From contig NZ_CP059067.1 of NCBI RefSeq assembly GCF_017795745.1, positions 2,666,001-2,730,000 on the forward strand: a stretch of DNA of 64,000 nt. Direction: 5' to 3'. Positions 3-47,294 of the stretch are shown here, in pieces. The first letter of the stretch is position 1, and each line of letters starts with the position of its first letter. The stretch comes from Rhizobacter sp. AJA081-3. Its GTDB lineage: Bacteria > Pseudomonadota > Gammaproteobacteria > Burkholderiales > Burkholderiaceae_C. The notes beneath the pieces were generated by a model, which saw nothing but the letters and a program-made list of their open reading frames with translations, made no database searches and had not been told where the DNA came from. Made by a program: the position numbers and the translations under genes.

Positions 3-452
3 GTTCGCTTCCACTCGACGATCGAGCTGGTCAACGCGCTGGAGCAGGAGAAGGCCATGGACAAGGCCGGGCAGATCGCGCACCGGCTGACCTACGTGGA
101 CATGCTGGTGCTCGACGAGCTGGGCTACCTGCCGTTCAGCCAGGCCGGCGGGGCCTTGCTGATTCACCTGTTGAGCAAGCTGTACGAGCACGCCAGTGTG
201 GTCATCACCACCAACCTGAGCTTCGGCGAGTGGGCCAGCGTCTTCGGCGACGCCAAGATGACCACCGCGCTGCTGGACCGCCTCACCCACCACTGCCACA
301 TCGTGGAGACCGGCAACGACTCCTGGCGCTTCAAGCACAGAAGTTCGACCACCACCGCCGCCAGGACCCGAACAACCACTCACCGAAAGAAAGGACTCAA
401 CCCGCAAGCCAAGAACTCAGAGATATCCTTAGACAAAGGCTCCCTCAGGTAG
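3..452 (+). CDS. istB: IS21-family helper ATPase IstB, 3' part
   Basis: This is the C-terminal part of the AAA+ ATPase that helps IS21-family transposase IstA capture target DNA. The reading frame is open from the left edge of the window (base 3), so the 5' end lies outside. The Walker B region [10 protein letters not shown], the sensor segment [12 protein letters not shown] and the ending [16 protein letters not shown] are typical of IstB. After FKHR the frame continues for about 35 basic, Thr-rich residues ([15 protein letters not shown]) not found in every family member. The stop is followed at once by IS21-type end repeats, so this is the distal gene of the element. IstA would lie upstream. 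Confidence 0.93.
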
Positions 453-1328: not shown

Positions 1329-2309
1329 GTGGCAAAACAACCTACCGGCTCAGCGCCCGAGGGCGAGCCAACCCGTTTCGCACGCACCATCCTCTCGATG
1401 GCGATCGCCCAGACCCAAGCAACCCTCTTCGACGCCAGTGAAGAGGACCAAGGGGCGAGCCAACTCTTCAGAGTTCGGGTACTCGGTGTCGTCGGGCCCC
1501 TGCTCGTCGAGTCCGGGAAGTTGCTTTCTGAAGCATTGGCTTCTATCGCCAGCATCGACCTGCGGCATCGGATCGAGGCCGACACTTCGCTGATCCAGAT
1601 CACCGCGGTCTCGGACACCGAGTTCGACCACGAAACGACCCGGCGGCTCGGCGCGGCCGCTGCTGCGATGGCAGAGCGACTTGGTGGGGCCATGGCGGCC
1701 ATTGCTTCGCCGCTGCCGTTCACGCGCTCTGCGCAGAACGACGGCGACCGCCTGTTCGACCAAGTCGCCCAGGTGAAGAAGAGGGGGGTGCCAACGGCTT
1801 TCAGCTTCGCCGTCCGGGCCGGCTACGTCTCCGAACTTGGCGCACTCCGATTCACCGAGGTCCACAAGTGCGCCAAGTCCACCTGGCTCCAGGATCCTGA
1901 GCCGAGCACGACGTGGATCGAAGCGATCCTCCGTTCCAGCCGATCCGGCAAACAGTTGTCGGCCGCTCCGCTCAACGGCGCACCCGCCATCAAGGTGGAC
2001 ACGGATGCGGAAGACGATGCGGAGTCTGATCTGACCGCCCGGGCCCACGCCCTCTGCGGCGGCAGCTGCTGGCTCAACGTCAGGCGCGCCACTGAGCATT
2101 GCGAGAAGGCGCCTGAGCTCGAGCGCCACGTCCACCATCTGGTGGCTGTCGAGATCCGCGACGCCTCGCAGCTGAAAAGCTTGCGGCGTCTGCATGCAGC
2201 CACTGCGAGCCTGATCGAACAGGCCGAAGTGTTCGAGCGCGCTGCTTCGCAGCGAGCTAACCGGAAGCGTCCACTGGACCCGCCGCCTAGCTCGCGTCCG
2301 GCTGCGTGA
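1329..2309 (+). CDS. Hypothetical protein beside the dual recombinase
   Basis: The product is a 326-residue soluble protein of unknown function, starting at GTG 1329 behind AGGAG (1317-1321) with 7 bases spacing. It is Ala-rich and helical, with no signal peptide or membrane helix. The middle part contains LRFTEVHKCAKSTWLQDPEP and a Cys-containing segment (ALCGGSCWLNVRRATEHCEK) near residues 238-258, and the tail is basic and Pro-rich. It is convergent with the recombinase gene, and the two 3' ends overlap by 23 bp (2287-2309). Tight pairing with a recombinase suggests a mobile-element accessory gene. No function can be assigned from sequence. Confidence 0.6.
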   Translation: MAKQPTGSAPEGEPTRFARTILSMAIAQTQATLFDASEEDQGASQLFRVRVLGVVGPLLVESGKLLSEALASIASIDLRHRIEADTSLIQITAVSDTEFDHETTRRLGAAAAAMAERLGGAMAAIASPLPFTRSAQNDGDRLFDQVAQVKKRGVPTAFSFAVRAGYVSELGALRFTEVHKCAKSTWLQDPEPSTTWIEAILRSSRSGKQLSAAPLNGAPAIKVDTDAEDDAESDLTARAHALCGGSCWLNVRRATEHCEKAPELERHVHHLVAVEIRDASQLKSLRRLHAATASLIEQAEVFERAASQRANRKRPLDPPPSSRPAA

Positions 2310-5300
2310 GGAGGGCTCTCCCGTCGCGCCCGCCCGCCGGATCCGTCCGGCGGGCGGGCGCGACGGTCACGGCACTCCAGACCGCTGCAGCAAGGAGCAC
2401 GCGCATGCCAATGCGCGAGTCGCGCACTCGGTCGGTCGTGTTCTGCCGGATGCGCACGCCGACGCGAAGCTGACGAACCTTCCTGTTCGCACCGCCGTCG
2501 CGGGAGGCGGCAAGGTGCGCTCGCCTCGTGTGGCTGTAGCCGGCCTTCTCAATCAGTTCCAACCAGCCGGCCCAAACGTCATTGCTCACAGCCAGCGGGC
2601 CCGCGACCGAGCCCTTCTTGGGCCGGCCGCGCTTGCGCACAGGCGGTGAGCCGGCCGCAGACTCTTTGGACGCCCCACCAATCTTCGATGTTGAGGTCGG
2701 AAGAACGACTTCAACGTTCTTTGCATCGTCGACCAAAGCGCCGAGCACGCGCGCGTAGCCCAGCATCTCCGACTCGCTGCTCGTCACGAGCATGTTCTGT
2801 CGCTCGTCGACATGCCATCCGAGCTTGGTCAGGCGCAGCAACGAGTTCTCGTCCTTGGTGAGGGACTCACCAAGCTTCGAGAGCGCTTCTCGAACCTGGC
2901 GGATCTGGGCAGGCTCGTACCGCGCGTCCTTCTCGATGAGCCACCAGCCCGTACGCTCCGTGTGCCTGCCACGCGCCTGCTCCGCGATTGCGGCGGCAGC
3001 CTGGGCCACCGCCTGGATGTGCTCCTCCGAAACCATGGTGGCCGCAGCGACACCGTCGGCCCGACCATACTGCCGCAGTACGTCGAGCACATCATCCACC
3101 GCATCGGGCGTCAGGTTGCGGTAGGTCTCAGGCTCGAGCTTGTGCATCTCGGCCGTCCGGGGCTTCCAGCGCAGTGCGAACCGTCGCAGTTCGGCAGGAG
3201 TCAGCGTTTTGCCGACGGGTCTGCTGTCTGGCCACCAGGCCGTCTTCAACTCCATGGCCAGAAGCTCTCCGCCCAGGTGCCAATACGAGCGAAGCAGGGT
3301 CCTCGGCGTGTGCCCCATGATGTTCGCAATCGCCCAGATCAGACGCCGGGTCGCAACGGCCTCCTGCGTCAAGACATTGAGCAGCGCCTCCGGCTCGCAC
3401 CACTTCCGCAGAGCGACCTGCAGATGCGCATTGGCGCCCTGATGCAGTGCGAGCGCAGCTGCCAGCAGGCGGTTGGGCAGGCCATGGCGGCAATGGTGAA
3501 CACGAACCTGAGGGTCGCCCGTCACGGCCTGAAGGGCATCTCGCAGGCGCACGGCTACGCGGCCTCGCGGCATCATGCTGCGCACATCGGCCGAGCGCAC
3601 AAAGAGCGCGGTGGTCTCGCGACCATCGTGATACAGGTCTGCGTGCCGGAGCCAGTCCTGCAGAACCTTGTGCTCGGCCGGGCTCAACGTCTCGAGGATC
3701 GGCACGATGCGCATCGAGGTGTCCGACTTGAGACGACGGTAGAGGTTGCCCGACACCCGAATGATCCAGACACCGCCGACGAACTGGATGTCCTTTCTGC
3801 GCAGGCCCATGGCTTCGCCGATACGCAGCCCCGCTCGATAGCAGAGCACCAGAATCGCTGCGTTCATCAGGCGGCGTCTTGCGTCCACTTCCGAATCGCC
3901 CTTCAACAACTCAATGGCTTGGAGGTACTCGTCCTCGGCAATGAGGTTGGCGTCCACCCGCCCGGGCTCACCACGCGCAAGAGCGCGGACGGGCCGCCAG
4001 TCGATGGGTGGCACACCATGGCGCTTGCGCAGATAGGCGTGGAAGACACGCAGTGCCGTTTCGATATGCTCGAGTTGCTCGGTGTCGGCGAATTCCACCA
4101 GGTCGACGTAGAGTTCCTCGATCTCCACGGGGTCCATCGCCGCCAGATCCTCCGTGTCGACATGCTCGATCAGGCGCTTGGCAATGGCGGACCAGTAGGT
4201 CGTGATGCTACGCAGCGAGTAGATCCCGCCTTGCGTGCGGCCTTTCCTGCACATGGCGCACAGCCACTGCGCGAGGTGGCCACAGATGGCCGGGACGGCA
4301 ACTTCGTCCTGCAGGGCTGCAAAGCGCACGTCGACAAGCCTGCCCAGTTCGTCAATCCTGGTGCGGCCATGGGCCATGCCCTCGTCGTTAGTCACCGAGA
4401 GCTTCCTGACGTCAGCAAAGCACCTGCTGACCAGCGCGAGAAACTTCGGCACACCAACGAGCGTCGTGCTGATGGCGGTGTGGGCCGCGTCATGGTCGCC
4501 GGCGACTATGTCCGTCTCCGACTGCGTTGGCTCGGGCTTCTGCTTGGCGAGTGCCTCGAGGGTGCCGGGAAGCGGCTTGCCGCACACGAGACGCTCGATA
4601 GCTTGCGGCGGCAGTGACACGGACCCGTGGTCCCCTGTAGCAAACGAATGCGCGAGGCCACTCAGGCGCACGGCGGCGGCGGCCCGCACTGTCTGCACCG
4701 CGACCTTCAGGCCGCCAGCCATCCAGCCGAGGTTGTACTTGTCCGCGAACCGCGCAACCTGGGCCAGAAACACTTCGCGGTCAATGGCCGTCCACTTGCC
4801 GTCGTGCTGCACGAGCGTCGCAGCAAGCCACTCCGGCAGCGCGAACTGGCGGACACCGGACGAGTCAGACGCCAGGCGGATCCACCACGTGCGCGACTGC
4901 GGGTCTTCACGCCCCGGGATGTTGATCAGGTCGTGCTTCGGCTGCAAGGCCCATTCCTGCAACACCTGCGCATCAAGGACCAATGCCTCGGCCGCCAGCG
5001 CCAGTGCGAGGACGCCGGTTCTCGGCTCCTCGGGTGCGGAGGCCGCGTGGGCCTCCAACTCTTCAACGAGGCACTGACGCAGCCGAGCGGTCTGAGCTGC
5101 TGCACGCAGCGCCGTGTGCTCGATCTTGATCGCGAAGTCTGAGATCGCCACTTCGACCGAAGGAAGGCTCCAGCCGGTTTGGTACTGCTTCGCGGCTCGA
5201 GCAAGGAGTTCGCGAAGCGCCTGACGCAGGCGCACCGCGCGGTATGTATTGGTGTTGGACGTGCGGTCGCTGAGCCGCTTGAACAACAGCTCGACCTTCT

Positions 5301-7875
5301 CGTTGTTCAGCGACTTCAGCGCTGCGCCATTCAGCGACTCTTCAAGGAGTGTGTCGATCTCGCGCGAGATGGCATCCTGCTCCTGCGCGCGCTCCGCACT
5401 CCGGCGCTCATGCCCGAAGAGAAACAATGGTCGCACCATGCCGACGAGATCTTCATGCGCCTCCGACTCCGCGGAGTCTTCCAGCCAACCCGGGACAGCC
5501 TGCACGCCGGTATCGGCCGCCGCGGCATCGAGGAGCGGTCGCAGCGGCGCGTAGTGCGCCTCGACGGCCTGCAAGCTGATCGGGGACAGGTTTTGCGTTC
5601 CGATGCTCACGTGTCCGAGAAGCGACGAGATGACCTCGGCAGTGGCGCCGCGCTCGCGGAGTTCGGTCGATAGCCAGTGTCGCGCAAAGTTCAGCGGCAG
5701 GGGCCAGATGCCCTCGAGTTCCTTGCGCAGCTTGGCGGGCGTCAACGAGCAGATGTGCAGGTCCTCATCGAGATCGAAGAACAGCGGAGCGATCCGCCGC
5801 TCAGGGTGGTAGACGATTGACTTGATGGCCCGCGCGGTCGCGGGGGCTGCACCGCGAAGCTCCGTCATGAGCGCGCGCAGGTAGCTGCACTGGGCGCGGA
5901 TCTGATCCACCGCCAGAGCCGCCAGCACGGCGACCCGGTGGCCGCGCGCCGGCCCTCCGGATTTGTCGTCCAGGAGTCCGATGCGCGCATCGAGGTCGAA
6001 CATCTCGAGTGAGTCGCCGAAGTCCTCGACCGGCCGGCCACCTGTCGTGAGAAGCAGGTTCAGGACCGAGAGTGTCTGGTGCGCCCGATGCCGAGACTGA
6101 AGCGACAACGAACGATCGCGGATTCTACCGAGCAGCGCCTTCCTGGCTTGCTTGTAGATGCGGCGGAGCTCGCGGGGCGGCAGGTACCACCAGGATCCGA
6201 CCCGGAACTCCGCTTTCGCTTGAGAGCTCGAGCCTTCGCGCCATGCAGCCAGGACGACCCGACGGTGCAGTTGCTGCAACTCGGCAGCCTGGCAAGCGTA
6301 GTAGTAGGCGCCGGCCAAAGGTGGGTCGGACTCCACCGCGGTCAGCAGATGCACCTTCACGGCGTCGTGGCAGGCGGCGTACAGCGCAGTGGCCAGCCAC
6401 CGAGAGAGCTTGCCAACGAGCAGGCGAGCGTGCTTCTGCCGGAGCTTGGCCAGGAGCTCGTGCGCCTCGGACACCAGCACCTCTGGCGCAGCGCCGAGCG
6501 CGTCCGCGAGCCGGTAGCCTGGCGTGGCGTGCCCGAGGGACTCGGCAAGGTAGGCCTCTAACGCTGCCGGCATGGTCAGTTGGAACCGGTCGCCGTGGGC
6601 CGCCAGGAGTTTTCGCTGTGCGTCCGTAGGCTGGCGTGCGTTCGGCTCCGACCGGACCACTCGGACCCAGGATCCATCCCTCCTCAGCCCTGGTCGAACC
6701 GTGGGTTCGACGATGGTCTCGACCAGAGAGCTCAAGATCTCGCCAGTCACCAGTGACAACGAAAGCAGCGCCGCCGCGCGCCGCTCCTTTTGGTTGGTCC
6801 CGAGGAGCGCCGCCCGCAGCGCACCGACCAGCGCGCGCAACTCGTGCGGGAGGAGTTGGTCGTGATCGACCGCCAGATACTGGTTTGTGATGGCGGCGCG
6901 GAAGCCCGTCGCGCTGGCTCGGAACTCTTCGTGCGCGTTGCTCTCGCCGCACATGCTGGCCGATCGCTCGTCGGCACCAGCAACCGCGATCTGCTCGCCC
7001 GCCTCGCCGGCGCTGAACGCCGGGTCTTCGGTGGCCCCCTTGCCGTTCACGCTTCCCTCGGCCGGTGCGGCAAGTTCAGGCTGAAGCAGCTGAACTCGGC
7101 GCTCAGGTCTTGCGCCACCCTCGTCGTCGGGGTCGCCGGCAAAGATGATCAAACTGGAGGCCGGTAGGCGCTGAACACCCGAACGCAGGCCTTCCAAGAC
7201 CTGGGAGAACTTCACCAGGAAGGACGAATACACGGTGCTGCGCTTGGTGAGCAGCGGTTCGAGCGCCTCCTTCACCAGCTCCTGGGCGTGATCCAGCGTG
7301 GTCACCAGGTCGTTGGCCGACCCCATTTCATCCCAGTGTGCCAGGCGCCACCACTTCGCCTCTGTCAGGCACTTGCGGATGCCGTCAGCGCACTCCGTAA
7401 CCGTGTCGGAGGTCGTCAGCAGCGAGCCGCGCAGCATGGCCAGCAGCAACAACGCCTTGGCGACCTGCAGACCGTCGCCACCGCCAGCCAAGTGCTCCTG
7501 GCTGAGCATCGCCAGTACCGCGTACTCCGAGTAGGTACCGTAGAACTGGTTAGCGCCTTGGACGGCCGTTGGGGAACCTGGGACCGACTCGACCGTGGAC
7601 AGAATTGCCGCGAAGTCGGTTGGACACCAGCGGTCCAGAAGCCGCAGTGCGGGCCAGGATGGCTTGATCGCCAGCAGCGCCGACCAGTCGCCAGGCGCCA
7701 AGACATACGCCTGCAGAAACTGCCATCCGCCGTCGACCCGAAGCGGCTGGATCGCAGCCCAGAACGTCGTCTCCCACGCCACAATGATTGGGTCGGCGCC
7801 GCTTCGCTGCCGAGCCAAGAGTGCCGCTTCTCGAGGAGTTCGCACTCCTAGTGTGTCAGGGGTGGTAGACGTCAA
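2287..7875 (-). CDS. Giant protein with two tyrosine-recombinase-like domains
   Basis: This is a protein of about 1862 residues, starting from TTG 7875 (a GTG ten codons in is possible). The C-terminal recombinase domain has the full catalytic set: R1351 in AGLRIGEAMGL, K1383 in RRLKSD, H1460-x-x-R1463 in VHHCRHG, H1522 in IMGHTPRT and nucleophile Y1531 in LLRSYWH. It is preceded by a helical core-binding-like region at about 1195-1295. An earlier degenerate copy has R614 in TTGGRPVEDF, N729-x-x-R732 (NFARHWLST) in place of HxxR, and H755 in LLGHVSIG. Serine 764 sits where the tyrosine should be, nine residues after the histidine as in the intact copy. An AT-hook-like KRGRPKKGS lies near residue 1745. 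Ordinary phage integrases are 300-450 residues. The intact domain should cut and rejoin DNA; the degenerate domain may be structural or regulatory. Confidence 0.88.
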   Translation of the reverse strand: MTSTTPDTLGVRTPREAALLARQRSGADPIIVAWETTFWAAIQPLRVDGGWQFLQAYVLAPGDWSALLAIKPSWPALRLLDRWCPTDFAAILSTVESVPGSPTAVQGANQFYGTYSEYAVLAMLSQEHLAGGGDGLQVAKALLLLAMLRGSLLTTSDTVTECADGIRKCLTEAKWWRLAHWDEMGSANDLVTTLDHAQELVKEALEPLLTKRSTVYSSFLVKFSQVLEGLRSGVQRLPASSLIIFAGDPDDEGGARPERRVQLLQPELAAPAEGSVNGKGATEDPAFSAGEAGEQIAVAGADERSASMCGESNAHEEFRASATGFRAAITNQYLAVDHDQLLPHELRALVGALRAALLGTNQKERRAAALLSLSLVTGEILSSLVETIVEPTVRPGLRRDGSWVRVVRSEPNARQPTDAQRKLLAAHGDRFQLTMPAALEAYLAESLGHATPGYRLADALGAAPEVLVSEAHELLAKLRQKHARLLVGKLSRWLATALYAACHDAVKVHLLTAVESDPPLAGAYYYACQAAELQQLHRRVVLAAWREGSSSQAKAEFRVGSWWYLPPRELRRIYKQARKALLGRIRDRSLSLQSRHRAHQTLSVLNLLLTTGGRPVEDFGDSLEMFDLDARIGLLDDKSGGPARGHRVAVLAALAVDQIRAQCSYLRALMTELRGAAPATARAIKSIVYHPERRIAPLFFDLDEDLHICSLTPAKLRKELEGIWPLPLNFARHWLSTELRERGATAEVISSLLGHVSIGTQNLSPISLQAVEAHYAPLRPLLDAAAADTGVQAVPGWLEDSAESEAHEDLVGMVRPLFLFGHERRSAERAQEQDAISREIDTLLEESLNGAALKSLNNEKVELLFKRLSDRTSNTNTYRAVRLRQALRELLARAAKQYQTGWSLPSVEVAISDFAIKIEHTALRAAAQTARLRQCLVEELEAHAASAPEEPRTGVLALALAAEALVLDAQVLQEWALQPKHDLINIPGREDPQSRTWWIRLASDSSGVRQFALPEWLAATLVQHDGKWTAIDREVFLAQVARFADKYNLGWMAGGLKVAVQTVRAAAAVRLSGLAHSFATGDHGSVSLPPQAIERLVCGKPLPGTLEALAKQKPEPTQSETDIVAGDHDAAHTAISTTLVGVPKFLALVSRCFADVRKLSVTNDEGMAHGRTRIDELGRLVDVRFAALQDEVAVPAICGHLAQWLCAMCRKGRTQGGIYSLRSITTYWSAIAKRLIEHVDTEDLAAMDPVEIEELYVDLVEFADTEQLEHIETALRVFHAYLRKRHGVPPIDWRPVRALARGEPGRVDANLIAEDEYLQAIELLKGDSEVDARRRLMNAAILVLCYRAGLRIGEAMGLRRKDIQFVGGVWIIRVSGNLYRRLKSDTSMRIVPILETLSPAEHKVLQDWLRHADLYHDGRETTALFVRSADVRSMMPRGRVAVRLRDALQAVTGDPQVRVHHCRHGLPNRLLAAALALHQGANAHLQVALRKWCEPEALLNVLTQEAVATRRLIWAIANIMGHTPRTLLRSYWHLGGELLAMELKTAWWPDSRPVGKTLTPAELRRFALRWKPRTAEMHKLEPETYRNLTPDAVDDVLDVLRQYGRADGVAAATMVSEEHIQAVAQAAAAIAEQARGRHTERTGWWLIEKDARYEPAQIRQVREALSKLGESLTKDENSLLRLTKLGWHVDERQNMLVTSSESEMLGYARVLGALVDDAKNVEVVLPTSTSKIGGASKESAAGSPPVRKRGRPKKGSVAGPLAVSNDVWAGWLELIEKAGYSHTRRAHLAASRDGGANRKVRQLRVGVRIRQNTTDRVRDSRIGMRVLLAAAVWSAVTVAPARRTDPAGGRDGRALLTQPDAS
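2321..2366. terminator. 46-bp perfect hairpin at the convergent gene ends
   Basis: The arms at 2321-2341 and 2346-2366 are exact 21-base reverse complements around the loop TCCG. The stem is almost all G+C. It lies just beyond the stop of the 1329 gene and inside the last codons of the recombinase frame. No T-tract follows on either strand. A bidirectional transcription stop is the simplest reading, but so long a perfect stem could also be a recombination or replication site. Confidence 0.6.
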
Positions 7876-7910
7876 GGCATCAAAGCTCGTGTCTCTTTGC
7901 AGATCCTACC

Positions 7911-7985
7911 CTAGGCATGCTCTCATCATATGATGCAATGTTAGACTTTTCTGCGTTTCTAGCAATTCACTTATGCATTGCCTAG
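7911..7985 (-). promoter_or_regulatory. Promoter and palindromes upstream of the recombinase
   Basis: This is an AT-rich patch in GC-rich DNA. On the minus strand TTGCTA (7965-7960) and TAACAT (7943-7938) are spaced by 16 bases, a plausible sigma-70 promoter reading into the recombinase. Just downstream is the perfect 12-bp palindrome CATCATATGATG (7924-7935), well placed to act as an operator. CTAGGCATGC (7911-7920) and GCATTGCCTAG (7975-7985) form an imperfect inverted repeat around the whole patch. These could be regulator sites or recombinase binding arms. Confidence 0.5.
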
Positions 7986-8144
7986 CTGAGGGGTTCGCAA
8001 TGCCACGTTTCATCAGGGGCCGCCAGTGAGCGGCCCTAACTCTTCCGGGGCTGGGAAAGCCATGGGGAATGGCCCAGCGCGCCGAGAGGGGCCGAGTCGA
8101 CCACTTGATCTGCTGCGCCCGCGCGCTGCGCAGCTCCTGCGGCC

Positions 8145-8444
8145 GTGACTCTTCCGGGCCGCGCTCGCGCTGGTCGTGACGACCGCCGCCGTGCTCCCGC
8201 GGCCGCGGTGGATTCACGACTCACAGCGCTCGAGCGCAACATGAAGTACGTCGACGACGAGGTGGGCGCCTGGTGGGGAGAACTTGACCAGGAGACGAGG
8301 GCCCGCGCCGACACTGACCGAGCCGAGTCCGACGCTCGCGGCGCAGGCGACGACGCATTTGGAAGGCTACTCGCCGACGCTGCAGCCGGCTCCGTGCACT
8401 TCTCTCCGTTCGGCCTGGGATGGCTCGCCGTCGGGAGCCCGTGA
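8145..8444 (+). pseudogene. C-terminal remnant of a coiled-coil membrane protein
   Basis: From about base 8220 the frame encodes a charged helix (ALERNMKYVDDEVGAWWGEL, then alternating E/D/R) followed by AGSVHFSPFGLGWLAVG. That pattern resembles the extreme C-terminus of larger membrane proteins that end in a coiled coil and one hydrophobic helix. The first 25 codons from GTG 8145 are low-complexity Arg/Ala and do not look like real protein. No start signal is visible. An 11-bp direct repeat (ACTCTTCCGGG at 8039-8049 and 8148-8158) lies at the point where the recognisable frame would have been cut. A broken fragment is more likely than a working gene. Apart from the AT-rich promoter patch, 7876-8144 holds nothing else I can identify. 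Confidence 0.4.
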
Positions 8445-8503
8445 TGGGAACGGGTGATTGGTTGCGAGCTGGCTTCGCCGGCGCTTCTCCCGACATCAGC
8501 CGC

Positions 8504-9649
8504 TCACGCCGCGTCGCCGCCGATGTTCGTCAACGCGAGACGCAGACGCGGCTGACGGATGGAAAGGCCCGCGCGGGCAGCGGCCTCGATGACGGGCGAG
8601 AAGCGGCGATGCATCTTCCGGGTGTGGTTCTGTGCGATGTCGGCCAGCCGGTGCGCCAGGAAGGGATTGAGCAGGCGCTCGCGCAGATCGGCGAGGTAGG
8701 CGAGCGCCGCGGCCCCCTCCCCCAGCGCATCGAAGACGGGCAGCACCTCCTCGTGCCAGAGATCCTCCAGTTGCGCACGCAGCGAGTCGTCGCGCATCGC
8801 GTCGAGGACCGTCTCGTCGGGCGGCCGGCCATCGACGAGCCATCGCTCGGCGAGAAAACTGTGCGCCAGGTTGAGCAGCCACAGCTTGAGTCGCTCGAAG
8901 CCTGCCAGCGCATCCGTCAGAACGATGTCGGGGTGACTGCATGGCAGCACCATGCGCGGATGGCGCTCGATGGCCCACAAGGCATACGGTTCGGCGATGG
9001 CGCCTGCCGGATGCAGCGGGGCCGAAACGATGCGGTCGACCAGCGAGTTGACCCACACGCAGTGATCACGCAGATAGGCCATGAAGTCGTGCGGCGCTCC
9101 CCATCGGCCCGCCACGCCGGCAACGATCTCGCGCAGCGTGTCGCCGTTGCGCCCGACCAGTTCGCAGGGAAGGATCGTCATCGGCGCGGCGGGCAGCAGC
9201 CGCCACCGATGCCACAGCAGGACGACGAGCCGGGCGGGAAAGCTCCGCGGAGGGCCTGCCGTCGCGGTCAACGCGTCGGCGCTGTCGGCAGGGTCGAGCT
9301 CGTATCCCCTGTCGGCGGTGTTCGAGACGATCACCTGGACCTGCGAGGCCACCGCGTCGAGCAGGCGCGGCCACTCGCGCCTGGCATGCCAGGCCGACTG
9401 CACCGACGAGACCCGCAGCACCTCGTCGACCGTGCGGCCGTTGCGCAACCCGCGGATGTGCACGGGATAGCCCTGGGCAGCGGCCAGGGCCGCCAGCCGC
9501 GTGCTGCTTTGCGCGCTGTCGGTGCTTTGCACCACCGCGATGCCCCCCAGCGCCTGCCCGCGCGGCAGCGCCTGCGAAACGAACAGGTCGACATGGGCCT
9601 GCAGGAACCGGCCGGTGCCGAACTGCAGGATCGGCGCGGCGGCTAGCAC
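8504..9649 (-). CDS. Mannitol dehydrogenase-family reductase, tagaturonate reductase-like
   Basis: This is an NAD-dependent polyol/hexuronate dehydrogenase of the mannitol dehydrogenase family (381 residues), which contains UxaB (tagaturonate reductase), UxuB and MtlD. The N-terminal nucleotide-binding segment reads ILQFGTGRFLQAH, and VSNTADRGYEL, ILPCELVGRNGD and DHCVWVNSLVDRIV follow as usual for UxaB-type enzymes. The start is GTG 9649, overlapping the stop of the upstream dehydrogenase gene (GTGCTAG), so translation is probably coupled. It is the last gene of the sugar operon. With an LgoD-like enzyme just upstream, reduction of D-tagaturonate to D-altronate is the best guess; another ketose acid or polyol is possible. 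Confidence 0.82.
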   Translation of the reverse strand: MLAAAPILQFGTGRFLQAHVDLFVSQALPRGQALGGIAVVQSTDSAQSSTRLAALAAAQGYPVHIRGLRNGRTVDEVLRVSSVQSAWHARREWPRLLDAVASQVQVIVSNTADRGYELDPADSADALTATAGPPRSFPARLVVLLWHRWRLLPAAPMTILPCELVGRNGDTLREIVAGVAGRWGAPHDFMAYLRDHCVWVNSLVDRIVSAPLHPAGAIAEPYALWAIERHPRMVLPCSHPDIVLTDALAGFERLKLWLLNLAHSFLAERWLVDGRPPDETVLDAMRDDSLRAQLEDLWHEEVLPVFDALGEGAAALAYLADLRERLLNPFLAHRLADIAQNHTRKMHRRFSPVIEAAARAGLSIRQPRLRLALTNIGGDAA

Positions 9650-37674: not shown

Positions 37675-38628
37675 ATGACCACGAACCGATTCCTTCCCCT
37701 CACGCTGGTGGCACTGGCGGCGCTGGCAGCCTGCAGCAGCGTGCCCGTCGGCAACGCGCAGCTCGACGAAGCCCGCCGCGACTACCGCGCCGCGCAGGAG
37801 AACCCGAAGGCGCGCGACCTCGCCAGCGGCGAGATGCGCCTGGCTGGCGATGCGCTGGCCCGCGCCAGCGACGCCTGGACACGCGGCGACGACACCGACA
37901 AGGTGAACCACCTGTCCTACCTGGCCCGCCAGCGCGTGGCCATCGCGCAGGAGACCGGCAGCCGCAAGGCCTCCGAGCTCGCTGTCACCAACGCCAACGT
38001 GGCGCGCAATCAGGTCCGCCTGGAGGCGCGCACCGACGAGGCCGACGCAGCGCGGCGCAAGGCCGAAGCCGCCCAGCAGGACGCCCAGGCGTCGCAGCGT
38101 CAGGCGCAGGCCTCGCAGCAGCAGTCCGAGGCGGCGATGCGCGATGCGCAGGCCGCGCAGCGCGACACGCAGAACGCGCAGCGCCAAGCCGCCGACAGCG
38201 CCGCGCGCAACCGCCAGCTCGAGGCGCAGCTGAAGGACCTGAACGCGAAGCAGACCGAGCGCGGCCTGGTCGTCACCATCGGCGACGTGCTGTTCGAAAC
38301 CGACCGCGCGCAGCTGCGTGCCGGCGGCATGCGCAACGTCGAGAAGCTGGTGGCCTTCCTCAACCAGTACCCGCAGCGCAAGGCGCTGGTCGAGGGCTTC
38401 ACCGACAGCACCGGCAGCGAGAGCTACAACATGGAGCTCTCCGGCCGCCGTGCCGACGCGGTGCGCACCGCCCTGGTCGACCAGGGCGTCGGTGGCAGCC
38501 GCATCGCCACGCGAGGCTACGGCGAGTCGTACCCCGTCGCCGGCAACGACAGCTCAGGCGGACGGCAGATGAACCGCCGCGTCGAGATCGTCCTGTCCGA
38601 CGAGTCCGGCGCGATCGTGCCGCGTTGA
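37675..38628 (+). CDS. OmpA-family lipoprotein with DUF4398 domain
   Basis: This is a 317-residue outer-membrane lipoprotein. The lipobox is LAACSS. A DUF4398 domain (SGEMRLAGDALARASDAW) is followed by a long Gln/Ala-rich coiled coil at about residues 120-190, built from repeats such as DAQAAQRDTQNAQRQA. A C-terminal OmpA domain binds peptidoglycan (GDVLFETDRAQL, VEGFTDSTGSESYN, LSGRRADAVRTAL, NRRVEIVL). It likely ties the outer membrane to the wall across a helical spacer. Its last 75 bp overlap the convergent glucan synthase gene. Confidence 0.93.
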   Translation: MTTNRFLPLTLVALAALAACSSVPVGNAQLDEARRDYRAAQENPKARDLASGEMRLAGDALARASDAWTRGDDTDKVNHLSYLARQRVAIAQETGSRKASELAVTNANVARNQVRLEARTDEADAARRKAEAAQQDAQASQRQAQASQQQSEAAMRDAQAAQRDTQNAQRQAADSAARNRQLEAQLKDLNAKQTERGLVVTIGDVLFETDRAQLRAGGMRNVEKLVAFLNQYPQRKALVEGFTDSTGSESYNMELSGRRADAVRTALVDQGVGGSRIATRGYGESYPVAGNDSSGGRQMNRRVEIVLSDESGAIVPR

Positions 38629-41600
38629 GGCGTCGGGCGCGGGGCTGCCACCGGCGGCCCCGCGCTCGTCCGTCAGCGGGATCACGAAACATTGATCCTG
38701 CGTCAGCGCCGGCCAGTCGAGCGACTGGCCCGGCAGCAGCAGCCGCGCCGCCCACGGTGCGGCGTCCTGCAGCGCCACCTCCGCCGTTGCCCGCATCAGG
38801 ATGAAGCGCATCGTGCGCCCGTCGCGCCTGAGGCTCAGCTCCGCGCGCGGCCAGTGCGCGGGCAGGCAGGGAAGGAACGACAGTTCATTCGCTCCCAGGC
38901 GCAGGCCGAAGATCGACTCCACCGCCGCGCGGTGCATCCAGGCCGCCGCGCCGGTGTACCAGCTCCAGCCCCCGCGTCCCGTGTAGGGCGGCTGCGTGTA
39001 GACGTCGCCCGCCATCACGTAGGGCTCGATGCCGTAGGCCGCGCCGTGCGCCGAGTTCGCCGCCCGGTGAGCCGGGCTCAGGAAAGTGAAGTAGCGCCAC
39101 GCCGCCTGGGCGCTGCCGGCTGAGCCGAAGCGCGTGGCCAGTTCGGCCTGCGCCATCAGTGCCCACACCGCACCGTGGGAGTACTGCCCACCGTTCTCGC
39201 GCACACCCGGCGGGTAGGCCTGGATGTAGCCGGCGCTCGGCACGGCGTGCACGAGCGGCGGGTCGAGCAGGCGCACCAGCCCGGCAGCCGTGTCCACCAG
39301 CTGGTGCTCGACCGCGCCCATCGCCGCGACCTGTCGCGGCCACGGCGCCGCGCCAGACAGCACGGACCAGGACTGCGCGATCAGATCGATGCGGCCTTCC
39401 TGGTTGGCGTGCGAGCCGAGCGGGCTGCCGTCGTCGAAGAAGGCGCGCTTGTACCAGGCGCCGTCCCACGCCGGCCCGTTCAGTGCCGCCTTCCATCCCA
39501 GCGCCGCCGCCTCCCAGCGCTGCGCGCGGGGCACTTCGCCGCGGCTGCGCGCCAGCGGCGCGAAGCCGTCGACCAGCGCGCACAGGAACCAGCCCAGCCA
39601 GACCGATTCGCCGCGCCCTTCGTGGCCGACGCGGTTCATGCCGTCGTTCCAGTCGCCGCTGCCCATCAGCGGCAGCCCGTGCACGCCCACGCGCAGGCTG
39701 CGGTCGATGGCGCGCGCCGCATGTTCATAGACCGAGGCCACCTGCACGCCGACCACCGGCGTGTCGTAGATGTCCTCGACGCCGGGCGGGATCTGCGCGC
39801 CTTCGAGAAAGGGCACGGGCTCGTCGAGCACAGCCGCGTCGCCGGTCGCGCGCACGTAGTGCAGGCAGGCATGGGCCAGCCACAGCAGGTCGTCGGAGAA
39901 ATGCGTGCGCACGCCGGCACCGCCGGGCGAATGCCACCAGTGCTGCACGTCGCCTTCGGGGAACTGCCGCGAAGCCGCGAGCACGATCTGCTCGCGCAGC
40001 ATCTGCGGCGCGGCCCAGGCCAGGGCCATCGCGTCCTGCAGCTGATCGCGAAACCCGGTCGCACCGCCCGCCTGGTAGAAACCGGCCTTGGCCCACATCC
40101 GGCACGACACCGCCTGGTAGAGCAGCCAGCGGTTGACCATCGCGTCGAACAGCGGGTCGGGCGTGGAGACGGTGGTGGCCTCCAGCAGCCCGTCCCAGTG
40201 CGCGCGCACGGCCGCCAGCCGCTGCGTGGCCGGCACGCCGGCCGCACGGGTGGCCAGTTCACGGGCCGCATCGGCGCTGGCCGCATAGCCGAGCAGGAAG
40301 ACCCGCTCCAACGCTTCACCCGCCGGCACGCGCACGACCGTCGACAGGGCCGCGCAGGGGTCGAGGCCGCCGCCTTGCTGCTGGCCGAAGTGATCGGGCA
40401 GCACCAGGCGGCCGCGCGCATCGAAACACTCGCGGCGGTCGCAGGTCCAGTCCTCGCCGTCGTCGGCACCATCGGTCAGGCCGAAGAAGGCCGTGCCCTC
40501 GCCGAAGCCGGCGGACTGCTCGCGCTGGGTGCACAGCAGCGCGGTCAGCTTCTGCCCCGGCAGGCGCTGGCGGTGCAGCGCGGTGTGCACCGTGCCGCGA
40601 TCGCCGCGCTGCGCTCCCATCGTCCATTCGACGATGCCCGCCAGGCGCAGATGCAGCGTGCGCTGCCCGCGGTTGACGATGCGCAGCCGTACCTGCTTGA
40701 CGGCGCTGATCGTGTCGACGCACCAGCTCGCCGTCACGTCGGCATCGCCGTGCCGGTGCGCGATGACGCTGTGGCCCTGGCCATGCGTGACGCGGTAGCT
40801 CACGCGCTCGTCACCCGGGCTGCCCCAGGCGCAGGGCGTGGCGCTCCAGGTCTGCCGCGTGCGCAGGTCCTGCAGCAGCAGCCACTCCGAGGGCGGGTCG
40901 GCCACCGCGTCGTTCGACCAGGCGGTGAGCTGGTTCATGCGGCTGTTCAGCGCCCAGGTGTAGCCGCCGCCCGCTTCCGACACCTGGGTGCCGAACTCTG
41001 CGTTGGCGATCACGTTGATCCACGGCCGCGCCGGACGCTTCTGCGCGCTCACGTCGAAACCGAACTCGGCCGTGTCCGGCGCAAAGCGGCCCTGCGGCGC
41101 GGGCACCGGCGTGGCCGGCCCGGAGGCCACCAGCACCGCCACCGTCGACACCGCATGGCGCTGCTCGAAGGCCTGCTCGTGCCGCTCCACCCACTCCTGC
41201 ACGTGATGCAGCAGGGGCCGGCCGTCGGCGCGCAGACGCACGCGCGCCAGGCCCTTGAGCGTGGCCAGTTCGGCCGCGGACACCTCGTGCGACTGCAGCA
41301 CCACGAAGCCGGTGCTGGACACGCCGCCCTGCGCCGCGCTGTCGGCCAGGTGGCGATCGCGCAGCGCCATGACGTCGTGCTGCAGCGCCATCAGGTAGGA
41401 GGCCGGCTCGGCATTGACCACCACCAGGTCGCAGGCGACACCGCCCCAGGACCACAGGCGCAGCGCCTGCGCCAGCGAGCGCAGCAGGCCCAGGCCCTGC
41501 GAGACGCCGGCGGTGACGAGCACGATCGGCCGGTCGCCCGAGAGGCCGAAGCGCCACAGCAGACGGCGGTCGCAGGGTTCGGCATGCGAAGCGCCGGCCG

Positions 41601-44600
41601 ATTGCGGCCGGGCCAGCGTGAGCACCAGCGCCGTCGTCAGGCTCTGCACGGCGGCGAAGTTCTCCGCGCCGATGCGCAGCGCACGCAGTCGGATGCCGGC
41701 CAGCGTGGCCGACATCAGCGAGGCGCGCTGCACGTGGATGGGCTGGCGGTACTTGTCGATCACCGCGCTGAGCACGCCGCCGTTGTCGGTCGCCGCGGTG
41801 GCGAAGGTCAGCATCGCCTTGCCCCGCGGCGCGATGCGCAGGCGCACGGCCAGCGCGCACACCGGGTCGAGGCCGGTGTCCAGCGCCACGGGCGCGTCGT
41901 CGACCGACAGGGGCGGCAGCTCGAACGAGGCCAGCGGCCGGCTCGCCCCACGGTTGCGGCCGAGCCAGCGCTGGCGGTCGGCCTGCACGCGCACGCTGAT
42001 CACCTGCGGGTCGCTGGCAGCGATGAAGTGCGCCGCCATCATGCCGCGCTCGGTGGCCAGCCGCGGCGTGCGTTCGAACACCAGCGCCTGGTGGGCATCG
42101 CGCCACTGCGCGCGCACGAACAGGTTCGAGAAGGCCGGGTGGGCCTCGTCGGCGCGCGGTTCGGCCAGCGTCACCTCGAAGGCAGACAGCAGCTCGATGT
42201 CCAGCGTGCGGTCGCTGAGGTTGTGCAGTTCGACCTGGCGGAACTCGATGTCGTCTTCCGGGCTCACCCACACCGTCGTGTGCGCCTGCACCTCGGACCA
42301 GGCGGCGTCGAAGCAGACGCGGTCGGCGTGGTAGGTGCTGCGGTACACCGCGGCATGGTCGGGCGCCGGGTGCTGCGTGATCGACACGGCGCGTGGCTGC
42401 TGGTCCCAGCGCAGGTAGAAGAAGCTGCCCAGCGCGTCGCGCAGGGCATCATCGCGCCAGCGCGTGATGCCGGCGCTGCCCCAGCGGCTCCAGCCGGCAC
42501 CGTTGGCGCGCAGCGAGACGCTGTAGCGGCCGTTGGACAGCACATGCGTGGGCTCCAGTGCCGCAGCGCCGGGCAGCACCTCGCGCAGCAGGCCCGGCGT
42601 GCGCCGCTGCAGTGCCTGCGGCGGCGGGCCGGCGAGCGGCGCATAGAGCATCGACACCTCGCGCGGCGCACGTTCGTGCAGCAGCGGTGCCACCGCCTCG
42701 ATGTGCGAATCGGCCATGCCCCAGCGGCGCACCACGCCATCGTGCAGCACGTTGGCCAGGGCCACGATGGTCATGCCCTGGTGGTGCGACATGAAAGTGG
42801 ACACCGGCGTGAAGCCCTCGGCCTGCGACTGCCGCGAAGGCGTGTAGTCGAGCGCCTCGATGAAGCCAAGGGCCTCGCGCGCGCCCAGCGTCTGCAGCAG
42901 GTCGAAGTTGGCCGCCGCGCGGCGTGGCGCCACCTGCGCGGCCAGCCCGGTGGCATAGGGCGCGATCACCAGCTCGTCGGGGGGCGTGCGGCGCAACGCC
43001 AGCCGCGGCACGCCTTGCGGCGCGTACTGGTAGGCCAGCGTGTGGTCGCGCCCCGCGTAGGCGGACTCCGAGATGCCCCAGGGCACGCGGTGCGCGTGCG
43101 CGAAGTCGATCTGTTCGCGCAGCGCGGCCAGGCAGGCGTCGCGCAGCACGCTGCCCTCGGGTTCATCGAGCACCAGGCTGGGCATCAGGTACTCGAACAT
43201 CGAGCCCGACCAGGAGCGCAGCCCCGCCCTCGCGCCCACTGCATAGAAGGGCCGGCCGAGGGCCGCCCAGTGGCCCACCGGCACGTCGCCCTTGGCGATG
43301 GCCAGCAGGCTGGTCAGGCGCGACTCCGAGGCCAGCAGGTCGTAGAAGCCGGCATCGAGCTGCTGCTCGGCGACGCGGTAGCCGATGTGGAACAGGCGAC
43401 GCCGGTGGTCGAACAGGAAGGCATAGTCGGCGCCCCAGGCGAACTGCGCGCAGCGCTGCGCGATCGCCTGCAGCCGCTGCAGCGCATCGTCGTCGAGATC
43501 GCCCTCGCGCGCCAACGCCAGGCAGGCCTGGCCGACGGCGAGCAGGTGGCCGCCGAGGTTGCCGCTGTCCACCGTGGATACGTACATCGGCAGCAGCGGC
43601 GCACACGTCTGCGTGTCGTACCAGTTCATGAAGTGGCCGCGGTGGCGCTGCAGCGTGTCCAGCGTGGTCAGCGTCGCCTCGATGCGCGTCAGCAGCTCGG
43701 CCGTGCCGATCCAGCCGAACTCGCGCGCGCAGGCCACGCTGAGCAGGTACAGGCCGATGTTGGTGGGCGAGGTGCGGTGCGCCACCATGTCGTGCGGCAG
43801 CGTCTGCAGGTTGTCGGGCGGCAGGTGGCTCTCGTCGGCGGTGACGCAGCGCTCGAAAAAGCGCCAGGTGTCGCGCGCGATGCCTTCGAGGTACTCGCGC
43901 GTCACCTCCGGCAGCTCGGCCGCGGCGCGCGCGGGCTGTGGCCGGCTCACCCACCAGGTCCACAGCGGCGAGGCCGACCACATCAGGCACAGCGTGATGG
44001 CCAAGGCGGGGTGCGGCGAGCCGGACGCGAGCAGCCCGGCGAGCAAAGCAGCGCCGAGCAGCGGCTCGGCCGCATGGCGGCGCCACAGCACGGCAAGGCG
44101 CGTGGAGGCCTGCGCCTGCGCGGTGGCGGCGGTGGTCCACTGCAGCAGGTGGCGCCGGCTGACGGCGGTGCGCCAGAGCGCGCGCACGATCGCATCGGCA
44201 TTCGCCAGCGCCTGCTGCAGCAGCTGCGCGAGGTGCCACAGCCCACCCCACAGCGCGCGAGCCAGGTCGGCGAAGGCCTGGCGGTAGAAGTGCAGCCGGG
44301 CCAGGTCGTCGCGCTGCGGCGACAGGCCCGACACCGCGCCCATCAATGGCCCGGCGGCGAAGGCGGCCAGCAACAGCCCCAGAACCGCCCAGGGCGACAC
44401 CACGGTGCCGGCCAGCGCCAGCGTCAGCAGCGCCAGCGACATCGGGGCCACCAGCGAGCGGCGCAGGTTGTCGAACATCTTCCAGCGGTTGACGGCGCGC
44501 ATGCGGTAGCGCCCGGGTGCCATCAGGAAGGGCAGCAGCTGCCAGTCGCCACGCGTCCAGCGGTGCACGCGCGAAGCGGCCACGTCGGCATGGAACGGCG

Positions 44601-46908: not shown

Positions 46909-46912
46909 CGCC

Positions 46913-47155
46913 CTACCAGGCCAGGGAGCCGACGCCGATCACCAGGGTCAGCACCACCACCGTGGTCACGAAGCGCGCCGCGACAAAGCCCTGCACGGCT
47001 TCTGCGCCGCAGCGCAGCACGAACAGGCGACCGGACAGCGAGCGGCACAGGTGCAGGTGCTCGCCGAGCGCCGACAACTCCATGGGAGAGGTGTCGACGG
47101 CATCGCCGAAAGACGCCGTGCTCCAGTTCGGCCCGGCGGGGCCAGTTGCGGTCAT
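46913..47155 (-). CDS. Small single-helix membrane protein upstream of glucan synthase
   Basis: This is an 80-residue protein from ATG 47155 with one C-terminal hydrophobic helix (VAARFVTTVVVLTLVIGVGSL). It ends 4 bp before the glucan synthase start, so the two are almost certainly co-expressed. I do not recognise the family. A regulatory or assembly partner for the synthase is a reasonable guess. The promoter-like site at 47295-47321 would serve both genes. Confidence 0.65.
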   Translation of the reverse strand: MTATGPAGPNWSTASFGDAVDTSPMELSALGEHLHLCRSLSGRLFVLRCGAEAVQGFVAARFVTTVVVLTLVIGVGSLAW

Positions 47156-47294
47156 GAGGCAGCCTTGTCGTGGGCGTGGGTGTGGGCCTGGACCGTGTCG
47201 AGGAGCGATGCGTTCCCGCAATGTCGAATCTGGCGCGCGATCATGGTTGGTGGCTCTCTCGGGGCTCTCGTGGACTTCGGTGTGATTCCCCTTG

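Follow-up and report, generated by a model that had tools for sequence, protein, structure and literature searches.

A single-chain tyrosine recombinase with one putatively dead and one live core in Rhizobacter

The 64,000-nucleotide stretch of Rhizobacter sp. AJA081-3 DNA analysed here (the window) carries a gene whose product appears, from its sequence and that of its homologues, to be a genuine fusion, natural and conserved, that joins a pseudo-recombinase to an active tyrosine recombinase. Because related bacteria encode the same parts as separate neighbouring genes, the protein looks like a naturally fixed, lopsided recombinase, and the DNA that hosts it looks like a poorly known kind of mobile DNA. 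We moderately favour the reading in which this gene encodes the enzyme that integrates and excises a mobile island, acting as a two-protein recombinase in a single chain, one subunit of which is a pseudo-recombinase.

Two published element types carry a recombinase-like protein that is not fully catalytic and has no assigned job, namely GinC (PMC5385486) and Tfp (PMC10214605). The present family makes the dead-live question testable with one protein, and a natural dead-live recombinase would be useful to designers of asymmetric recombinases. Neither the family nor a dead-live fusion was described in the top results of the literature searched, outside of which most subscription journals lie.

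Two cores in a single chain

The gene is a single uninterrupted open reading frame of 1862 codons with a candidate TTG start (Table 1), and no truncation is seen, since the C-terminal end of its product aligns with the ends of its relatives. An earlier note on this DNA had read two recombinase-like cores in a protein of about this size; both were recovered in the one chain, with R614, N729, R732, H755, S764, R1351, K1383, H1460, R1463, H1522 and Y1531 all at the numbers it had claimed. The C core displays the complete R1351-K1383-H1460xxR1463-H1522-Y1531 set. The N core displays R614, N729xxR732 and H755, together with K638, a lysine absent from that first list, and has Ser764 at the tyrosine position, nine residues after the histidine (H+9). 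The nucleophilic tyrosine at H+9 that characterizes an active tyrosine recombinase is present in the C half (codon 3283-3285) and missing from the N half (serine codon 5584-5586).

Table 1. Features of the fused recombinase gene and of its surroundings (window coordinates)
Feature	Coordinates	Strand	Remarks
Putative fused dead-live tyrosine recombinase	2287..7875	-	1862 aa, predicted TTG start; single-gene relatives alignable end to end
N-terminal region, residues 1-340, weakly kept	6856..7875	-	alignment A1
Residues 341-560, presumed DNA-binding, preceding the N core	6196..6855	-	largely helical in AlphaFold model; role presumed
N core, predicted dead, residues 565-790: R614, K638, N729, R732, H755, without Tyr	5506..6183	-	
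Inter-core region, residues 800-1190	4306..5478	-	alignment with split relatives
Predicted live unit, residues 1191-1545: presumed core-binding region and catalytic core	3241..4305	-	PF00589
C-terminal tail, residues 1546-1862, low conservation	2290..3240	-	alignment A1
Candidate interval for the recombinase-proximal island end	7876..8503	.	no att repeat found

The C core is matched by PF00589 (E 2.3e-15, best stretch 1314-1473), whereas the N-core stretch of the window protein gave no match in Pfam. The window protein matches the NCBIfam model PRK01287 (XerC-type) at 732-772 with an E of 7e-4, far under the cut-off of that model; PF00589 was detected in four of the seven rows of an N-core alignment (A4, best E 5e-5), whose profile matches XerD (1a0p, E 3.4e-4); and a Foldseek search with the AlphaFold model built for residues 341-800 (mean pLDDT 75.8, pTM 0.63) had tyrosine recombinases in 24 of its best 25 rows and a type IB topoisomerase in the remaining one, with a best E of 0.012 and none below 0.001. 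Because these profile, alignment and model matches add up, the N core was taken as a recombinase fold, and both its sequence and its modelled structure indicate a relationship to Xer. The earlier note had proposed a profile and Foldseek check of this region against the prospect of a non-recombinase fold; the fold modelled is that of a recombinase. A model comprising the two cores matches IntI4, XerH, XerA and Cre, with a mean pLDDT of 53.6 and no residue at or above 90, at which the placing of one core relative to the other is not reliable.

Across the window protein and five single-gene relatives sharing 20-25% identity with it, T611, G612, R614, D637, K638, N729, R732 and H755 are invariant in the N core, as are R1351, K1383, H1460, R1463, H1522 and Y1531 in the C core; invariance at such a level of divergence indicates that the residue pattern is not due to chance. 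Residues were counted over 27 N-core and 26 C-core rows from 28 loci including the window, leaving out L065 (a copy of L069), L018 (a copy of L017 with a stop) and the first open reading frame of L067, which stops ahead of the N core; L124, L128, L129 and L130 entered the tree only, and loci L077-L115 are profile matches only, outside the alignments. In the N core, the first arginine, the lysine and the second arginine are present in 27/27 rows each and His755 in 25/27 (2 gaps), and Asn729 occurs in 22/27, with R, G, V, F or S otherwise and His in none. The tyrosine column, readable in 25 of the 27 rows, never contains Y: 13 rows have G, four have S, four have H, two have D, and K and L occur once each, next to 2 gaps. 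By comparison, R, K, R, H and Y of the C core are kept in all 26 rows and His1460 in 23. In the survey of homologues that the earlier note had suggested for the N729 and S764 changes, no row (0/27) has His at 729 or Tyr in the 764 column, and the dead N core and live C core that it had read in one protein are kept across the family (27 N and 26 C rows).

Tyrosines nonetheless occur close to the vacant position in part of the family. Among the 15 readable N rows that derive from split loci, five (L022, L015, L069, L066 and L071) carry a Tyr at H+11, which might act as a displaced nucleophile, and one of these also has a Tyr at H+8, whereas the 10 single-gene rows lack any Tyr from H+7 to H+11. 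The term dead is thus secure where the gene is single, but less secure for each and every split relative. In the A. ursingii protein described below, outside these counts, the N core likewise shows NxxR and lacks the H+9 Tyr, but has a Tyr at H+6.

Fused, split and re-split relatives

Single-gene relatives of 1769-1894 aa were found in other genomes of the genus and, further out, of the family and the order, and one of 1743 aa was found in Alteromonas; the five aligned end to end with the window protein measure 1790-1894 aa and the others 1743-1867 aa. Elsewhere each half has its own gene; the two encode 743 and 995 aa in Vibrio cyclitrophicus, 738 and 1014 aa in Ketogulonicigenium and 756-779 and 1061-1066 aa on three Acinetobacter plasmids (the last two as annotated), and 790 and 1120 aa in Aeromonas caviae and 760 and 1050 aa in Marinospirillum (both as longest frames). 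The gene boundary of these two-gene relatives falls near the start of the region equivalent to residues 800-1190. Overlapping halves were measured in 12 of 14 two-gene loci, four of them with an overlap of exactly 4 nt, and gaps of 44 and 4 nt in the remaining two; some overlaps are overstated since they were measured from the longest possible start.

In an unrooted tree of 30 C halves (12 single-gene, 2 re-split and 16 separate-pair rows), a branch with a support of 100/100 separates both re-split rows and 11 single-gene rows from all 16 separate-pair rows and the twelfth single-gene row, the A. ursingii protein, which sits on a long branch; long-branch warnings accompany the tree, one of them for the window row. 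This protein (WP_004986494.1, 1680 aa), encoded on the A. ursingii plasmid NZ_CP068182.1 (L124:6979-12686) and annotated only as a tyrosine-type recombinase/integrase, shares the two-core architecture of the window protein, but differs from it by its position outside the window group on a long branch and by an overlapping small upstream gene (222 aa). As it falls outside the window group, it perhaps represents an independent fusion.

The re-split members, L067 (5949-12235; 775 + 1320 aa) and L130 (317-5208; 378 + 1253 aa), are both broken ahead of the dead catalytic core, such that the dead and live cores remain in one chain. We read this, from two cases only, as a sign of selection for the link between the two cores; the break in L067 or in L130 may be a sequencing error or a frameshift. 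The coexistence of one-chain, two-gene and re-split relatives in one family suggests that the dead and live pair works as a unit.

Several two-gene relatives harbor a small gene of ~190-240 aa directly upstream (L015:10028-10654, L014:7894-8523, L022:7163-7879, L129:1488-2048), one such gene having a weak Xre-like HTH match, under the cut-off. No single shared family is evident for these small genes, because only pairs match: those of L014 and L015, alone among eight compared by phmmer at E 0.01, and those of L043 and L045, in a further phmmer comparison. No match was found between the small upstream genes and the open reading frames near the window gene, and no neighbour of the fused gene is common to many members, few phmmer pairs being detected.

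Working and mobility of the fused gene

Tyrosine recombinases act as four protomers, two of which are active at once, and exchange strands in two steps. In a fused dead-live enzyme, one chain would cover both half-sites of each attachment site: the dead core would grip one of them and assemble the synapse, and the live core would cut its own strand only. Two chains would then form a pseudo-tetramer whose two active sites are fixed on one strand pair; with both half-sites filled by the chain, the active pair would be fixed and the enzyme would carry out only one strand exchange, that of one defined strand pair, the junction being resolved by the host or by replication. Fusion would fix both stoichiometry and orientation, which the two-gene relatives may obtain through coupled genes, and the Arg, Lys, Arg and His retained by the dead core would be consistent with a grip on the scissile region and on the neighbouring protomer rather than simple tethering. 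We infer this one-strand-per-site mechanism from the arrangement of the two cores and from the general behaviour of tyrosine recombinases. The earlier note had also suggested that the asymmetry could impose directionality or half-of-sites control without a partner protein; this is an attractive possibility, but a partner may be needed, given the small upstream gene of several split relatives, the four genes on which GInt depends and the three of four shown to be necessary in SE.

Possible, but clearly less probable than the island recombinase that we favour, is that the N core does not serve as a second protomer at the crossover site but binds DNA or regulates, through arm-site binding, target choice or repression, and is attached for delivery to a live core that forms an ordinary homotetramer. 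MrpR, reportedly a phage repressor with a recombinase fold, would be a precedent for such a module, and the two-core model shows no reliable contact between the cores. Tfp of the SE elements, a non-catalytic protein with a recombinase fold, is likewise proposed to act via DNA binding (PMC10214605). Against this reading, the R, K, R, H pocket is kept in 27, 27, 27 and 25 of the 27 rows (2 gaps at H), seemingly beyond what a pure binder would need, and the dead and live cores stay joined in both re-split members. Rather unlikely, in our estimate, is a broader version of the dead-live enzyme, in which a half-of-sites single chain that cuts one strand per site forces the exchange of single strands and then copy-out replication instead of cut-and-paste; if true, the dead core would account for strand bias in multi-recombinase islands generally.

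The mobility that an island recombinase implies was approached through the distribution of the gene and its surroundings. The scan of relatives revealed a match in 11 of 149 genomes, own genome included, and none in most; two of these 11 (G095 and G114), with frames of only 309 and 323 aa, were set aside. From the profile alone, and with the own genome counted, scattered matches were obtained in 12/300 genomes of the order at E 1e-20, and in 12/369 genomes of the class and 14/398 of the phylum at E 1e-15. Members are located on contigs longer than 1 Mb in G000, G056, G069, G093, G158 and G249; genome contigs yielded no locus in a first scan and 6 in a second, and viral contigs yielded 14 pattern matches and no relative. 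Two genomes of the genus, assigned to different species (G006 and G007), are 99.7% identical over 9.3 kb of DNA that includes the gene, an identity that carries the caveat of misbinning because both genomes are metagenome bins; the fused-gene copy of G007 (L018:2008-7617) contains one in-frame stop.

For the window copy, no attachment repeat, empty site or island boundary was found, and a search for att-like repeats, which the earlier note had proposed for homologues, gave nothing clearly above the control in 42 kb to the left. GC drops to 0.52 at 7801-7950, and similarity to genomes of the genus starts at 8529 at the earliest, within the last codons of the neighbour gene 8504-9649 (synteny with four genomes); left of the window gene, no synteny match to four genomes of the genus was obtained. 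Scanning 7871-8040 at 14 bases with one mismatch returned 6 matches in the 42 kb to the left against 3 in a 56-kb control to the right, and the scan of both strands, in which element ends were not located, returned little else than a 15/17 inverted match at ~-11061. This match, considered as a terminal repeat, lies within a gene and is taken as chance.

To the left of the window gene lie istA/istB, whose domains point to the IS21 type, together with genes for a chemotaxis receptor and for a transposase that has rve and HTH_21 domains; the IS21-type istB lies at window 57-452 and istA at L047:18219-19622, the window start cutting the element. A 326-aa open reading frame on the plus strand (1329-2309), convergent with the recombinase gene and overlapping its end, has no match in Pfam, NCBIfam or PADLOC. 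Further along the window, at 38554-47157, two very long frames of 2784 and 2660 aa overlap each other, one on each strand, in a stretch of ~73% GC; at most one of them is a likely gene.

The clearest picture of mobility comes from the split form, in which the recombinase is part of a three-gene module carried by L043, L044, L045 and other Acinetobacter plasmids, and annotated only as hypothetical proteins and an integrase. A 9-kb query from L044 is matched by 225 Acinetobacter plasmid records and, among the matches listed, 4 of 40 start at query positions 1217-1220, ~165 bases ahead of the small first gene. Two of these four were examined: to the left of the module, L117 has an unrelated piece of plasmid and L116 an insertion sequence ending within a few bases of the module start. 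The L117 site is unoccupied in two plasmids (...GGTTGTAATACTC...) and reads ...GGTTGTAATAACAG... when occupied; since both copies carry TGTAATA, this sequence is common to the junction. In AT-rich DNA this 7-bp identity may be chance, and the module may be present at another place in the two plasmids whose site is free. No right end was found for the Acinetobacter element; the target sequence picks up again ~8.7 kb on, with ~0.5 kb missing.

These plasmids also bear on an alternative function, that of a plasmid or chromosome maintenance recombinase (dimer resolution, replicon fusion) rather than a mobile-element integrase, which would agree with the location of the L043 and L124 modules a few kb from replication-initiation and par genes and with the 225 plasmid records. 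The sharp, insertion-like left end of the Acinetobacter module, the members on contigs of more than 1 Mb and the lack of a match in most relatives (11/149) make this function improbable.

Constraint on the N core was estimated from two single-gene pairs, in which its dN/dS reaches 0.094 and 0.285, versus 0.136 and 0.332 for the C core, dS being high or saturated in the pairs and above 4 in the first, whose ratio is rough; a third single-gene pair gave 0.224 (C core only), and a split Acinetobacter pair yielded no value for either core. Pairwise identities of N and C cores are correlated (r 0.69, 300 pairs), as shared ancestry alone would give. The loss of Tyr and of the HxxR His might evoke a decaying pseudo-domain retained merely by being in frame, which is highly improbable given a constraint close to that of the live core in the two pairs, pocket residues invariant at 20-25% identity, and its maintenance as a separate gene in split relatives.

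Known multi-recombinase systems

No defence system was recognized, as none of the five proteins compared with the PADLOC models matched at E 0.001, and the comparison with known systems focused on mobile elements. RIT and BIM are multi-gene modules with tyrosine recombinases, also in Betaproteobacteria (PMC3414803, PMC10214605). The RIT archetype consists of three recombinases of 315-410 aa, all with the Tyr, and BIM of one recombinase and a second protein predicted as an SMC domain protein. RIT was rejected against a single 1862-aa chain, and BIM because no SMC family was found in the window protein or in the 1329-2309 open reading frame. Tn554 TnpA/TnpB and actinobacterial tandems bring an ordinary and a long recombinase together, but as separate genes whose proteins both have the catalytic motif, unlike the window family (PMC3414803).

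Both GInt and the window family have recombinase sets with one defective member. GInt has three integrase genes and ginD: ginA and ginB precede the defective ginC and ginD follows it, all four being necessary for excision and integration, and direct imperfect repeats of 10-17 nt flank the element (PMC5385486). However, GinC is without the first Arg, whereas in the window family this residue (R614) is present in 27/27 rows and the Tyr is missing. In the window's genome, no further PF00589 match lies closer than 69 kb, and GInt, compared through its published description, was rejected on this gene content and on these residues.

In SE, the gene for Tfp, which has a recombinase fold and no catalytic residues, directly precedes that for the large active IntB, with an overlap suggesting translational coupling (PMC9345347); three of the four core genes intA, tfp, intB and srap were shown necessary, and a tfp deletion was unobtainable (PMC10214605). 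Circularization is strand-biased and occurs without an empty site, with imperfect inverted terminal repeats of 13-19 bp (PMC9345347), and the second strand is proposed to be settled by the host or by replication (PMC10214605). SE and the window family both have a dead-plus-live recombinase pair, as separate genes in SE and as one chain here, but Tfp is reported to be without the RHRY motif, whereas the window N core keeps R, K, R and H. The family profiles gave no match to Tfp, IntB and Srap of SE-6945 (from pSEA1; one SE), nor did phmmer searches with these three proteins among 417 open reading frames that span -40 kb to 20 kb relative to it. An SE element was rejected on this lack of similarity to the SE-6945 proteins tested and on its missing core genes, only one gene being present; by analogy, a Tfp-IntB-like working of the window protein stands, and SE membership does not. 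Dead-plus-live sets being known for SE and GInt, the window family is a further variant of multi-recombinase mobile islands.
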